NCBI RefSeq assembly: GCF_024752305.1
Contig: NZ_JANTHX010000007.1
Span: 420-64,419 of the forward strand
Length of the DNA stretch: 64,000 nucleotides
DNA from: Protaetiibacter mangrovi
Lineage (GTDB): Bacteria; Actinomycetota; Actinomycetes; Actinomycetales; Microbacteriaceae
Reading direction: 5' to 3'
A model generated the notes under the pieces. That model did not search any database. It was not told the DNA's origin and worked only from the letters and a program-made list of their open reading frames with translations. Numbering within the stretch: the stretch's first letter is position 1; every line of letters begins with the position of its first letter. Shown here one piece after another: positions 7,542 to 11,853 of the stretch. The position numbers and the translations under genes are program-made.

Positions 7542-8515
7542 GCGGCGCCGTCGAACATCGAGGTGACCGATCCGTCGTCGAACACCTCGTGGATGGCGCG
7601 GGCGATGAGCGGCGCGATCGGCAGCACGGTGAGCTTGTCCCAGCGCTTCTCGTCCGCGAGCGGGAGGGTGTCGGTGACCACCACCTGGTCGATGACGTCG
7701 GACTGCAGGATCTCGGTCGCGGGGTCGGAGAACACGGCGTGGGTGGCGCCGACGATGACGCCGGTCGCGCCGTGGGCCTTGAGTGCTTCGGCGGCTTTGA
7801 CGATGGTGCGCCCGGTGTCGATGAGGTCGTCGACGATGAGGCACACGCGCCCGTCGACCTCGCCGACGATTTCGTGCACGCTCACCTGGTTGGGCACGCG
7901 CGGGTCGCGGCGCTTGTGGATGATGGCGAGGGGTGCGCCGAGCTTGTCGGACCAGATGTCGGCGACCCGCACGCGGCCCATGTCGGGGCTGACGACGGTG
8001 AGGCTCTTGGGGTCGAGTCGCGACTGGAAGTAGTCGAGCAGCACCGGCATGGCGAAGAGGTGGTCGACGGGGCCGTCGAAGAAGCCCTGGATCTGGGCGG
8101 CGTGCAGGTCGACGCTCATGATGCGGTCGGCGCCGGCGGCTTTGAACAGGTCGGCGACGAGTCGCGCCGAGATGGGCTCGCGGCCGCGGCCCTTCTTGTC
8201 TTGCCGGGCGTAGGGGTAGAAGGGGGCGACGACGGTGATGCGCTTGGCGCTGGCGCGCTTCGCCGCGTCGCACATGATGAGCTGCTCCATGAGCCACTCG
8301 TTGATGGGCGCGGTGTGCGACTGCACGATGAACACGTCGGCGCCGCGGATCGACTCGCCGAACCGCGCGTAGATCTCTCCGTTGGCGAAGGTGCGCGCAT
8401 CCGTCTCGACGAGTTCGGTTCCGAGTTCTTCGGCGATGTCGACGGCCAGTTGCGGGTGTGCCCGCCCTGAGACGATGACGAGCCGCTTCTCTCCGCTGAT
8501 CTTGATGCCGGACAC
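7538..8515 (-). CDS. prs: ribose-phosphate pyrophosphokinase
   Basis: Makes PRPP from ribose-5-phosphate and ATP for nucleotide, His and Trp synthesis. 325 aa. Visible: FANGEIYARF, the flexible-loop region HKRRDPR, and the PRPP-binding motif CLIVDDLIDTGRTI. GTG start. A TAGACT box at 8555-8560 (minus strand) gives a leader of about 30 nt. In many actinobacteria prs directly follows glmU; here a DUF222-HNH gene and two repeat elements separate them. The 3' end shares CTAG with the convergent small membrane protein gene. Confidence 0.96.
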   Translation of the reverse strand: MSGIKISGEKRLVIVSGRAHPQLAVDIAEELGTELVETDARTFANGEIYARFGESIRGADVFIVQSHTAPINEWLMEQLIMCDAAKRASAKRITVVAPFYPYARQDKKGRGREPISARLVADLFKAAGADRIMSVDLHAAQIQGFFDGPVDHLFAMPVLLDYFQSRLDPKSLTVVSPDMGRVRVADIWSDKLGAPLAIIHKRRDPRVPNQVSVHEIVGEVDGRVCLIVDDLIDTGRTIVKAAEALKAHGATGVIVGATHAVFSDPATEILQSDVIDQVVVTDTLPLADEKRWDKLTVLPIAPLIARAIHEVFDDGSVTSMFDGAA

Positions 8516-8554
8516 TGTCCCCGATACCCGCTCTCCGTTGGCGACTCGACTCCG

Positions 8555-8584
8555 AGTCTAGTGTGTCGCCCGGGTGTCGCCCGA
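8555..8584 (-). promoter_or_regulatory. prs promoter with 11-bp direct repeat
   Basis: Minus-strand TAGACT (8555-8560) is a plausible -10 for prs. Immediately upstream of it, GTGTCGCCCG occurs twice with an 11-bp period (from 8563 and 8574), one helical turn apart, covering the expected -20 to -35 region. A binding site for an activator or repressor is possible but unproven. Confidence 0.35.
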
Positions 8585-8680
8585 GTGACATCGCGGTGCC
8601 CGCGGGACCGGATACGCGGGTCGGTGGTCTCGGGGCGGATCCGCGGCGCGGTCGCTCTCCGGACCGCCGCCCCTGCAGGT

Positions 8681-8721
8681 GGTCGAGGAGCGCGCCGCCG
8701 AGCGGCACGCGTCTCGAGACC
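8681..8721 (-). repeat. GGTC..GACC palindromic repeat element, copy 2
   Basis: GGTCGAG at the left pairs with CTCGAGACC at the right around an inner GC-rich stem. Read on the minus strand it aligns with the element at 10219-10270. It lies 17 bp past the stop of the DUF222-HNH gene, so that gene has one copy on each side in opposite orientation. It may also act as the gene's terminator. Confidence 0.7.
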
Positions 8722-8738
8722 CCCATCACCCGGCCCGG

Positions 8739-10103
8739 TCACCCGGCGAGGAGTCGCTCGAGTGCGGGGCTGCGGGAGGGCAGCGGTGTGTGTCGGAGGG
8801 TTCCGTCCCGGTCGGGTTTCTCGAGCAGGTAGTCGCCGCCGTCACGTCGGATGCGCCACCGGTTGTTGTGCACGGTGAGGTGGCAGAACCTGCAGAGGAG
8901 AACGCCGTCGTCGACATCTGTCCTGCCGCCGTGTTCGTCCCAGTGGTCGATGTGGTGCGCTTCGCACCAGGACGGCGGTCTGCCGCACATCAGGCACCCC
9001 CCATCCCGGGCAGCCATCGCGATCCGTTGCTTCTCCGTGAACAGCCGCAGTTCCCGCCCCAGGTTGAGCGCTTTGCCGTCTCCGTCGAACAGGATCGGGA
9101 CGGCGCCGGATGCGCAGATGAACCGCTCCGCCGTGTCGATCGACACCGCCTCGGTCTGCCCTTCGAAGAACGCGGCACCCACCCGGGTGTCGAGGTCGGT
9201 CTTCGTGACGAGGATCCGGACGGCGGGCTTCCGATCCCCGAGCAGCTTTGAGGGGTCGACCTGCGCACCGGCACGGACCAGGTCGACGAGGGTGTCGAGG
9301 GCGAGCTGCTCCGTCGTGCGCTCGTCCCGCACGATGTCTTCCGCACGCTCGATAGCGTGCGGATCCACGAACCGGGGCCCGCCGCGGCGGGGCGAGGTGG
9401 CGGCATCGAGGATCGGCACCACGATCGCCGCCGACTCCGGATCCAACAACCCCGTCACCCGCGTCATCCCATCTAGTTGCGGCGTCACCCGCAGGAACCG
9501 CTTCGCCCGGAGCTCATGCTCCCGGGCGGCGACACCGGCCAGGTCCAGTTCGTCACGCACGCGGCCCGCACGGATCGCGAGTTGCTCGATCGTCAGTCCC
9601 GGCGCCTCGCGGAGCAACTGTCCGACTGCTTCTTCCAGCACATCGTCCGTGGTGCCCTCGGCTGCCGCGGTCAGGCGGGCGCGGATCAGTTCCGCCGCCT
9701 CCACCGAGATACTCGCGGCGGCGACCGCGTCGCCGATCAGGCTCTGCCACCGCGGCACCGGCGGCGCCTCGGGCATCGTCGGTCGCTCGACGGACAGCAG
9801 CTCTGCTGCCTTCACGAGCGTGCGGGCATCCCGGGCGGAGGTGCCGGAGACCTTCGCGATCAACTCTTCAGCGGTCCGCACGCCCTCCGACTGCGCCAGC
9901 CCCGCATGCCCGAGCTCGCGGCGGGAACGGTGCGCGATCTCACCCGCCACCGTCGCCGCCACCGCATCCAAGCGACGCCGCACCTCCGCGATCCAACGCT
10001 GCGACACCAGCAGCTCCGCATCGGCAAGACCACCCACCGATACCGGTGCGAACGGCACCGACAGGTCACCCAGACGGGTGAGGGAGTCGGTGATCGAAGC
10101 CAT
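8739..10103 (-). CDS. DUF222 / HNH endonuclease domain protein (13E12-repeat type)
   Basis: 454 aa: an N-terminal DUF222 helical region (about 1-330) and a C-terminal HNH nuclease fold with Cys pairs, CLMCGRPPSWCEAHHIDHW then DDGVLLCRFCHLTVHNNRW; these His/Asn/Cys are the expected metal-site and catalytic residues. The ATG at 10103 has GGGAGG 7 nt upstream; a GTG at 10118 is in frame but lacks this. The biological role of the family is unsettled. A near-perfect LexA box lies 19-34 bp upstream of the start, implying DNA-damage induction. The gene sits between glmU and prs, flanked by inverted copies of a repeat, which suggests insertion. Confidence 0.88.
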   Translation of the reverse strand: MASITDSLTRLGDLSVPFAPVSVGGLADAELLVSQRWIAEVRRRLDAVAATVAGEIAHRSRRELGHAGLAQSEGVRTAEELIAKVSGTSARDARTLVKAAELLSVERPTMPEAPPVPRWQSLIGDAVAAASISVEAAELIRARLTAAAEGTTDDVLEEAVGQLLREAPGLTIEQLAIRAGRVRDELDLAGVAAREHELRAKRFLRVTPQLDGMTRVTGLLDPESAAIVVPILDAATSPRRGGPRFVDPHAIERAEDIVRDERTTEQLALDTLVDLVRAGAQVDPSKLLGDRKPAVRILVTKTDLDTRVGAAFFEGQTEAVSIDTAERFICASGAVPILFDGDGKALNLGRELRLFTEKQRIAMAARDGGCLMCGRPPSWCEAHHIDHWDEHGGRTDVDDGVLLCRFCHLTVHNNRWRIRRDGGDYLLEKPDRDGTLRHTPLPSRSPALERLLAG

Positions 10104-10121
10104 ACCCGATCCTCCCACGAC

Positions 10122-10137
10122 TCGAACGAATGTTCGA
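10122..10137. promoter_or_regulatory. SOS (LexA) box
   Basis: TCGAACGAATGTTCGA: perfect inverted half-sites TCGAAC and GTTCGA separated by 4 nt, the form of the actinobacterial/mycobacterial LexA consensus (TCGAAC-N4-GTTCGA). One further flanking base pair (C/G) extends the symmetry. It is centred about 27 bp upstream of the DUF222-HNH ATG, where it would cover the promoter. Mycobacterial 13E12-family genes are known LexA targets, which supports the assignment. Confidence 0.85.
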
Positions 10138-10218
10138 GACTCGGAAGCGTATTGGTGGAGAAGTCACCACCCCACCCGAGGGGGGAGGGGGCGAGGCTCG
10201 GGTCGGCGAACGTGCGGA

Positions 10219-10388
10219 GGGTCTCGACACGCGCGCCGTCGCTTCGCGGCGGCCCGCTACTCGACCGACCAAAGGGCGCGGCGGCCCGCTACTCGACCGA
10301 CGAAAGGGCGCAGCGGCGCGCTCCTCGACCGACGAGAGGGCGCGGCGACGCGATACGCGACCGACGAGAAGGAGGCGGCGCCGCTCCT
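10219..10388 (+). repeat. GGTC..GACC hairpin element with four 32-bp tandem units
   Basis: A head hairpin (from GGGTCTCGACACGCG to about 10270, inner stem GCCGTCGC-ttc-GCGGCGGC) is followed by units starting at 10261, 10293, 10325 and 10357, exactly 32 bp apart. Each begins T/GCGACCGAC and ends in a GCGCT/GCTAC-like sequence. The last unit runs into the glmU stop codon (10387-10389). The same 32-bp period occurs at 34442/34474. No spacers separate the units, so this is not a CRISPR. Confidence 0.75.
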
Positions 10389-11853
10389 ACTCGGCCCCCG
10401 CCGGATCCGAGTCGGCACCGAGGGCCCGCTCGGCGATCGCGGCGGCTGCGGCCTCCGCCGCCGCGGAACCGGGTCGGTTGGCGGCCACCCAGCGCTCCAT
10501 GTTGCGCTGCGGCGCGACGTTGACGGCGAGCGCCCCCGGCGGCACAGGCTTGCGCACGACCGTGCCCGCCCCCGTGTAGGCGCCGTCGCCGATCGTGACC
10601 GGCGCGACGAAGACGTTGTGCGATCCGGTGCGCACGTGCGATCCGACGGTGGTGCGGTGCTTGTTCACCCCGTCGTAGTTGGCGGTGATGGTGCCGGCGC
10701 CGATGTTCGACCCCTCCCCCACCTCGGTGTCGCCGATGTAGGAGAGGTGCGGCACCTTCGAGCCGCGCCCGATCTTGGCGTTCTTCGTCTCGACGAAGGT
10801 GCCGATCTTGCCGCCGCCCGAAAGCTCGGTTCCGGGGCGCAGGTAGGCGAACGGCCCCACCTCGGCGAACGCGCGCACGACCGCGAGCGTCGCATCCGCG
10901 CGCTTCACGACGGCGCCCTCGCCGATCTCGCAGTCGACGAGGGTGGTGTCGGGCCCGATCACGGCGTCGCGCTCGATGGTCGTGGCGCCGGCGAGGCGGG
11001 TGTTGGGCAGGATCTCGGCGTCCTGCCCGATCGAGACGGTCAGGTCGATCCAGGTGGTCGACGGGTCGACGATGCTCACGCCGTTCAGCTGGTGACCGCG
11101 CACGATCATCGCGTTCAGCCGCGCCGCCTGCTCGGCGAGCTGCGCGCGGTCGTTGACCCCGGCGACGCGCCAGTTCTCGGCCACCGGCACCGCCGCCACC
11201 GGCGCGGATGCCTGGCGCAGCAGCGCCACGACATCCGTCAGGTACTTCTCGCCCTGCGCGTTGGAGGTGCCGATGCGCGGCAGCAGTTCGCGCAGAGCGG
11301 ATGCGGCGAACACGTAGCTGCCGGAGTTGACCTCGGTGATCGCGAGCACCTGCTCGTCGGCGTCCTTGTGCTCGACGATGGCGGTAACGGCTCCGCCCGC
11401 ATCCCGCACGATGCGTCCGTATCCGGTGGCGTCGTCGAGCACGGCCGAGAGGATCGTGGCGGATGCCGTCGCCGCGCGGTGCTGTTCGACCAGCGCGCCG
11501 AGGGTGACGGCGTCGAGCAGCGGAACGTCGCCCGAGACGACGACGACCTCGCCGTCGAAGTCGTCGGGCAGCGCCGCGACGGCGAGCTCGACGGCCCGGC
11601 CCGTACCCGGCACCTCGTCCTGGTCGACGACGATCGCCGTGTCGGCGTACTCGAGCACGGCGGCGGCGACGTCGTCGCGCTGATGCCGCACGACGACCGC
11701 CACGTACGCGGGCTCGAGGTGCCGCGCGGTGGTGAGAACATGCGCCACCATGGGCAGTCCCGCGATCGGGTGCAGCACCTTCGCGCGACGGGACCTCATC
11801 CGGGTGCCTTCGCCGGCGGCGAGCACGATCACGGCGAGTCGGGGGTCGGTCAT
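10387..11853 (-). CDS. glmU: bifunctional UDP-GlcNAc pyrophosphorylase / glucosamine-1-P N-acetyltransferase
   Basis: Last two steps of UDP-GlcNAc synthesis for peptidoglycan. 488 aa. The N-terminal nucleotidyltransferase shows VLAAGEGTRMRSRRAKVLHPIAG; the C-terminal half is a left-handed beta-helix with hexapeptide repeats (for example IGRGSKVPHLSYIGDTEVGEGSN) and GAGTITANYDGVNKHRT. A short Ala-rich tail follows. ATG start with GAGAAT (11860-11865, minus) ending 6 nt upstream, so probably leaderless despite lying 35 bp after the sulfatase stop. The usual downstream partner prs is displaced by the DUF222-HNH gene. Confidence 0.96.
   Translation of the reverse strand: MTDPRLAVIVLAAGEGTRMRSRRAKVLHPIAGLPMVAHVLTTARHLEPAYVAVVVRHQRDDVAAAVLEYADTAIVVDQDEVPGTGRAVELAVAALPDDFDGEVVVVSGDVPLLDAVTLGALVEQHRAATASATILSAVLDDATGYGRIVRDAGGAVTAIVEHKDADEQVLAITEVNSGSYVFAASALRELLPRIGTSNAQGEKYLTDVVALLRQASAPVAAVPVAENWRVAGVNDRAQLAEQAARLNAMIVRGHQLNGVSIVDPSTTWIDLTVSIGQDAEILPNTRLAGATTIERDAVIGPDTTLVDCEIGEGAVVKRADATLAVVRAFAEVGPFAYLRPGTELSGGGKIGTFVETKNAKIGRGSKVPHLSYIGDTEVGEGSNIGAGTITANYDGVNKHRTTVGSHVRTGSHNVFVAPVTIGDGAYTGAGTVVRKPVPPGALAVNVAPQRNMERWVAANRPGSAAAEAAAAAIAERALGADSDPAGAE

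Follow-up and report, generated by a model that had tools for sequence, protein, structure and literature searches.

A perfect LexA box before a DUF222-HNH nuclease gene of Protaetiibacter mangrovi and its recurrence across Actinomycetes

Introduction

Genes of the 13E12/DUF222 type are highly repeated in actinobacteria. The closest described systems are the 13E12-family HNH genes of mycobacteria, which are under LexA and for which a mismatch-repair role is hypothetical (PMC4181829). In Mycobacterium tuberculosis mitomycin C induces five putative HNH endonucleases in a RecA-dependent manner; the name 13E12 is not used for them in the available part of that report, which also describes PafBC (PMC8151990). 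The mycobacterial precedent to which an earlier sequence-only reading of the present DNA had appealed is thus in print. The lexA gene of M. tuberculosis is itself leaderless (PMC2897130).

Here we describe a minus-strand DUF222 + HNH ("13E12") endonuclease gene (positions 8739..10103, 454 aa, ATG start) of Protaetiibacter mangrovi, located in a window of 64,000 nucleotides, by which the whole stretch of DNA analysed is meant. With the LexA-controlled 13E12 genes of M. tuberculosis this locus shares the family name, the consensus TCGAAC-N4-GTTCGA and the multicopy state; it differs in belonging to a Microbacteriaceae genome near Homoserinibacter, and Homoserinibacter sp. GY 40078 (Microbacteriaceae) encodes a protein 63% identical to the window protein. 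The Ref endonuclease of P1 is comparable as an HNH nuclease that acts when the SOS response is on and differs as a phage gene product needing RecA-bound DNA. From sequence comparison we conclude, with a probability of roughly 85%, that the window gene carries a functional LexA operator at its promoter and would be SOS-induced, as a dispersed unit with its own SOS promoter.

The LexA box

The box TCGAACGAATGTTCGA (TCGAAC-GAAT-GTTCGA; TCGAACATTCGTTCGA on the gene strand) occupies positions 10122..10137, is read on the minus strand and lies 18 nt upstream of the ATG at 10103. It agrees with the actinobacterial SOS consensus TCGAAC-N4-GTTCGA in 12 of 12 specified bases; the fit claimed by the sequence-only reading is borne out, and the box, called near-perfect there, is perfect. 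It is the sole site without mismatch in the 64-kb window, for which about 0.001 perfect sites are expected at 72% GC and independent bases (0.05 per 2.98 Mb). Weak matches are uninformative, because nine sites with at most two mismatches occur in the window against a mean of 3.3 in shuffled sequences. The symmetric C/G flanks that had been described hold for the bases adjoining the box, where C and G lie immediately outside; beyond these the symmetry stops, with GAC on each side, and the core GAAT is not palindromic.

SOS regulon and paralogues

The genome has a size of 2.98 Mb, and a genome-wide scan with the LexA consensus, which had been proposed as a check, delivered perfect boxes at recA, imuA', an imuB-like gene and DUF222 genes. 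Together with one box at the paralogue L005, the five boxes from the scan bring the number of perfect boxes to at least six, against about 0.05 expected, and these precede recA, imuA', the adjacent Y-family polymerase gene and three DUF222 genes. In recA (TIGR02012 above cut-off) the box is located about 220 nt before the start, and in imuA' (NF058630 above cut-off) it lies upstream as well; the polymerase gene beside imuA' (Pfam IMS) is named imuB by context. One LexA homologue was found in the genome, and its gene has an 11/12 box upstream.

DUF222 genes are multicopy in this genome, with 11 found, so that the box belongs to a dispersed family, a context out of reach of the sequence-only reading. 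Eight of them possess a box with no or one mismatch, located 18 nt before the ATG in seven and 16 nt before it in one, and the other three (L001, L004 and L006) have no box at this upstream place. The eight boxed proteins are 65-94% identical to each other in their aligned parts; the three unboxed proteins share about 26-32% identity with the boxed ones in the pairs reported by BLAST. Paralogue L010 is frameshifted after about residue 302.

One LexA box (L034/L011, C7:2320-2335 of this genome) is located between a DUF222 gene and a divergent dnaG. The ORF of this dnaG (primase; TIGR01391 above cut-off) starts 99 nt from the box, and the primase might share the LexA operator of the DUF222 gene.

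Recurrence across Actinomycetes

A sample of 150 DUF222 loci from 19 families of Actinomycetes was compiled, 11 from this genome and 139 from other genomes; the loci were picked by best score and by hand among the matches listed for 30 genomes, and the sample is non-random. The upstream regions of these 150 loci contain 26 perfect boxes, 58 boxes with at least 11 and 86 with at least 10 of the 12 specified bases. Patterns with the wrong spacers 2, 3, 5 and 6 gave 0, 1, 2 and 0 loci at 11/12, none of them perfect, and 3, 13, 5 and 6 loci at 10/12, compared to the 86 for the true spacer. These controls cover 148 of the 150 loci; the best boxes of the other two (L090 and L092) reach 7 and 9 of 12.

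The share of loci with at least 11/12 varies by family, from 10 of 12 loci in family f21 and 16 of 32 in f10 to none in families f2, f6, f19, f27, f28 and f35, which are represented by 1-5 loci each. In the window's own family just 4 of 27 loci outside this genome reach 11/12. Among other species of the same genus 17 of 30 loci, or 16 of 29 genes, reach 10/12; these loci were taken from 43 listed matches, and L226 and L232 are one gene counted twice. As the family shares are uneven and six families are without such a box, LexA control appears widespread and not universal.

The genome is rich in TCGA, with 480 sites per strand at no more than two mismatches against 134 for the backward pattern, and a box could in principle arise there by chance. 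Against this stand the perfect match, the same position in eight paralogues and the enrichment over the spacer controls across families; the probability of a chance match is negligible, and the spacer controls together with the fixed place in the paralogues rule it out. The boxes at recA and the imuA'/imuB-like pair, the 11/12 box at lexA, the eight of 11 paralogues and the recurrence in many families argue strongly, at the level of sequence, for control of the window gene by LexA, in agreement with the earlier proposal that this HNH gene would be under DNA-damage control.

Start codon and promoter

The geometry of box and start codon was compared over 178 loci, composed of 148 loci of the sample (L090 and L092 left out) and the 30 same-genus loci. 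A box of at least 10/12 is present in the upstream or start region of 102 of them. For 86 of the 102 a start codon in frame lies within the box or no more than 45 nt past it; the other 16 were left out, and removal of near-identical contexts gave 73 sites with ATG or GTG. In these de-duplicated sites the hexamer TAnnnT precedes the start by 6 nt in 34 cases and by 7 nt in 11, with 0-5 sites at each other gap from 0 to 30, and a Shine-Dalgarno-like 5-mer is present in six. A TAnnnT 6-7 nt before the start with few Shine-Dalgarno-like 5-mers is the pattern of leaderless genes. When all 86 sites are considered, 55 have TAnnnT, 21 another nAnnnT (5-8 nt before the start) and 10 neither.

Box-to-start distances, taken from the 76 sites with an nAnnnT hexamer, fall into groups. 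The start codon lies inside the box in 19 sites, at distances of -10 or -8, with the -10 hexamer at the 5' edge of the box; in 13 sites the distance is 2-3 nt and the -10 hexamer lies in the box core. Nine sites have distances of 7-13 nt, 25 have 16-23 nt, which is the group of the window gene, and 10 have 31 nt or more, seven of them exactly 31. For every group but the last, the box overlaps the stretch from -35 to the start; at 31 nt it adjoins the expected -35. The arrangement of TAnnnT followed by a box that contains the ATG is seen at L041, L042, L044, L045, L049, L065, L067 and L142-L144; operator and first codons overlap there.

On the minus strand the order of elements at the window gene is box, gtcg, TGG, GAGGAT, cgggt and ATG (10103-10101). 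The mechanical list of open reading frames also gives a GTG start at 10118. The ATG at 10103 is preferred because all eight boxed paralogues keep it; the in-frame GTG is present in seven of the eight. GAGGAT (10109..10114, minus strand) is the proposed -10 hexamer, assigned from same-register homologues with TAGAAT (L224) and TAGCGT (L212), and it is directly preceded by TGG (10117-10115, minus strand), which resembles an extended -10. GAGGAT is not a TAnnnT hexamer and is weaker. A consensus scan of positions 8500-10450 found no sigma-70 promoters and no terminators.

The sequence GGGAGGA near the window ATG has good spacing and can alternatively be read as a Shine-Dalgarno sequence. LexA control would then be real and the transcript leadered, with transcription starting upstream of the box, the box acting as a roadblock within the 5' UTR, and GGGAGGA serving as the ribosome-binding site. 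This arrangement would also accommodate the conserved element that lies 16 nt ahead of the box; against a leadered transcript are the TAGAAT and TAGCGT hexamers 6 nt before the ATG in L224 and L212 and the rarity of Shine-Dalgarno-like 5-mers in the de-duplicated sites. We regard a leadered transcript as the less probable arrangement, though one of real weight, and lean towards a window-gene transcript that is leaderless or nearly so. The overlap of box and promoter expected by the sequence-only reading is therefore seen across the homologues and is less certain for the window gene, with its weak -10 and competing ribosome-binding-site reading.

The conserved element, TTCTCCACC at 10154..10162 on the minus strand, is DnaA-box-like (TTnTCCACA, with 7 or 8 of 8 bases) and is found at the same place in L003, L005, L007, L009 and L010 and in L211, L212 and L230; in L217 and L233 it lies nearer to the LexA box and is paired with an inverted TGTGGAT. 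It is present in seven of the eight boxed sites of this genome and in 10 of the 17 sites from the same genus (means of 0.2 and 0.3 in shuffles), in one of 11 other sites of the window's family (shuffle 0.2) and in 14 of 66 sites of other families (mean 1.9, most 6). The element is treated as a lead only, because the sites in this genome and genus belong to related copies and mononucleotide shuffles served as the control; it may be the site of a second regulator or part of the -35 region.

A further motif joins some of these promoters. TTGTCRGTG-N8-TAnnnT is a promoter motif of the PafBC (RecA-NDp) type. In the group with 2-3 nt between box and start, nine of 14 sites have TTGTCRGTG (at least 7/9) exactly 8 nt before the -10 hexamer, and the motif is absent at all further spacings between 0 and 24; in the start-in-box group the N8 spacing is found in four of 19 sites, with six scattered matches at other spacings. 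It is present in one of the 10 sites at 31 nt or more, in none of the nine at 7-13 nt and in none of the 24 in the window's group; this count picks starts slightly differently, giving 14 and 24 sites instead of 13 and 25. DUF222 genes in families f10, f3, f5 and f23 resemble PafBC promoters in having this motif, which there overlaps the LexA box or lies directly beside it. Two damage pathways would meet in one promoter in this way at L054, L059, L048, L122, L155 and L044. The window gene differs: its agreement at the N8 position is 2/9, no site among the 24 of its register reaches 7/9, and PafBC control of this gene was rejected.

Gene product

Both domains of the window protein score above the Pfam cut-offs, DUF222 with E 7e-23 (81.8 bits, cut-off 24.4) and HNH with E 1.4e-7. 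NCBIfam provides no name for the protein. The HNH domain (8865..8996, minus strand, residues 370-413) contains C370, C373, H384, D399, C404 and H408, and the catalytic histidine and the zinc cysteines are thus present at the C-terminus. In an alignment of 84 proteins H384 and C373 are conserved in 84 and C370 and C404 in 83; position 399, D in the window protein, is N in 59 of 83 rows and D in 13. The predicted fold of the HNH part is similar to those of the defence nuclease Cap5 (8fmf, Z 7.5, rmsd 2.9, 86 residues) and of McrA-like enzymes. Its sequence matches T4 endonuclease VII weakly (E 0.013, residues 354-422), with no match beyond the HNH part, and junction cleavage is not implied.

A model predicted from the 84-protein alignment has a mean pLDDT of 86.2 and a pTM of 0.73. 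Residues 41-188 of it (9540..9983, minus strand) form the ParB/Noc-HTH-like part of DUF222. Foldseek returned nothing at E <= 0.001, with either the whole model or the N-domain as query, a negative that is compatible with family membership. When the Foldseek candidates were re-aligned, DNA-binding domains of ParB, Noc and Spo0J filled the first nine ranks for model residues 41-188 (Z 9.3-8.0, rmsd 2.4-3.2, 95-103 residues), followed by a designed helical protein at 7.8; the top row by this re-alignment is Noc 7ng0 (Z 9.3, rmsd 2.5, 101 residues). The N-domain folded alone (pLDDT 91.8) again has nine ParB-type rows first (Z 8.9-7.8), the ninth tied with a designed helical protein. A Z of 8-9 can arise for a helical domain as a chance arrangement and is not proof.

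Comparison of the DUF222 profile with the ParB HTH profile gave a score of 28.5 and a pairwise E of 4e-4 at a probability of only 36%; 200 column-permuted ParB profiles reached at most 16.8, a control that is easily beaten, and the reversed profile 12.7. The aligned stretch comprises the HTH and the motif L..G.IS..HA, and the likeness to ParB, Noc and KorB consists of this shared motif and the predicted fold of residues 41-188. The window protein differs from them in its fusion to HNH and in its Pfam matches: at E <= 1 its N-domain matches neither HTH_ParB nor KorB, KorB being matched by one of 55 members (E 0.058), and at E <= 0.001 Pfam yields only DUF222 and HNH, with no N-terminal CTPase domain. 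On the basis of profile and predicted fold, the N-part of DUF222 and the ParB HTH are probably homologous, and the product is probably a DNA-binding nuclease in which a ParB/Noc-like HTH is fused to HNH.

Copying and neighbourhood

Alternatively, a mobile or homing unit could have the palindrome as its target or as a hitch-hiking end, with the LexA match secondary and the box shared through copying of the whole unit. Several features of the paralogues suit such copying. In blastn comparisons with L002 the similarity of the other seven boxed paralogues sets in 33-243 nt ahead of the ATG; for those copies that align to their ends, it stops somewhere from 25 nt short of the stop codon to 77 nt past it. 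The copied unit therefore includes the promoter in most boxed paralogues. A repeat, GGTCTCGAnACGCG, has 28 copies in the genome, of which an inverted pair brackets the window gene, GGTCTCGAGACGCG at 8708..8721 (minus strand) on the 3' side and GGTCTCGACACGCG at 10220..10233 (plus strand) on the 5' side. Eight of the 28 copies are located no farther than 300 nt from a DUF222 gene, where random placement would give 0.2; for this count three paralogues had their ends assigned manually. At L002 and L003 the copies form inverted pairs that point towards each other. For REP13E12 copies gene conversion has been reported, with 87 events in REP13E12 regions (PMC13061034).

A DUF222 gene lies between glmU and prs in this genome and in G295, of the same genus. 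In 24 of 30 loci, including three from the same genus, glmU and prs are neighbours separated by no more than 180 nt, and in the remaining four loci, all of the same genus, no glmU is found near prs. In G297 (L241) the glmU-prs gap is empty and a DUF222 gene is found on the upstream side of glmU; by this arrangement the glmU-prs neighbourhood may be a repeated landing area.

Against a purely mobile origin of the palindrome, the same box is present at recA, imuA' and imuB, which are not copies, and it occurs at other promoter positions in DUF222 genes whose proteins are mostly 18-34% identical to the window protein. Copying alone is insufficient, given these varied positions at distant homologues; no target-site duplication was seen, and the genome has no Y1_Tnp match, by which mobilisation by a REP transposase was rejected. 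A mobile unit and LexA control are moreover compatible, and we consider it very unlikely that the LexA match is secondary. Transport as phage or plasmid cargo was likewise discarded: at E <= 1e-5 the protein matches one of 50,697 phage and six of 72,556 plasmid records, none over 80% of its length.

Proposed role

In the undamaged cell LexA would sit on the box and block RNA polymerase. Upon DNA damage, RecA-driven cleavage of LexA would clear the promoter and lead to production of the nuclease alongside RecA and the mutagenesis proteins of the ImuA'-ImuB type. The window gene would be one copy of a dispersed unit with its own SOS promoter, and the ParB/Noc-like HTH would bring the HNH cutter to DNA.

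What such a cut would serve can be stated with graded confidence. Damage-induced processing of DNA in recombination or repair is a purpose to which we would give nearly even odds. Killing or defence is rather unlikely, and selfish maintenance is doubtful.

In the case of killing or defence, LexA control would be real and the nuclease a suicide or anti-phage effector and not a repair enzyme. M. smegmatis is killed and its DNA cut when the HNH nuclease MSMEG_1275 is overexpressed, and changes of H258 or N272 abolish the killing (PMC9416677); the other four HNH genes overexpressed did not inhibit growth in that report, the available main text of which contains neither 'DUF222' nor '13E12'. P1 Ref is described as an HNH nuclease especially toxic during SOS, and Cap5 (8fmf) is among the fold rows of the HNH part. 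On the other side, PADLOC yielded no family at E <= 0.1, by which membership in a known anti-phage defence system was rejected, and 11 copies, one of them frameshifted, fit poorly to a tightly kept suicide gene. The MksG paper was set aside as a DUF222 precedent because it concerns DUF2220. An effector role is the weaker candidate, and we lean towards DNA processing under LexA control.

The mycobacterial link between LexA and 13E12 is already known, and the present comparison adds its breadth, the promoter geometry and the ParB-like domain. The searched literature contained no report of the position groups, of the overlap of PafBC motif and LexA box at DUF222 genes or of a ParB-like DUF222 fold. 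We tentatively suggest, at somewhat less than even odds, that DUF222-HNH proteins are LexA-gated, ParB/Noc-like DNA-binding nucleases widespread in Actinomycetes, with leaderless promoters whose operator was gained repeatedly, at a small number of position groups over -35, -10, +1 or even the start codon, with the PafBC motif added in some lineages so that about 40 bp read both pathways, and that they may be among the main multicopy SOS outputs there. Many 13E12/DUF222 genes would thereby be linked to the damage response outside mycobacteria, with promoter positions that can be tested and with DUF222 proposed as a DNA-binding module fused to a nuclease.
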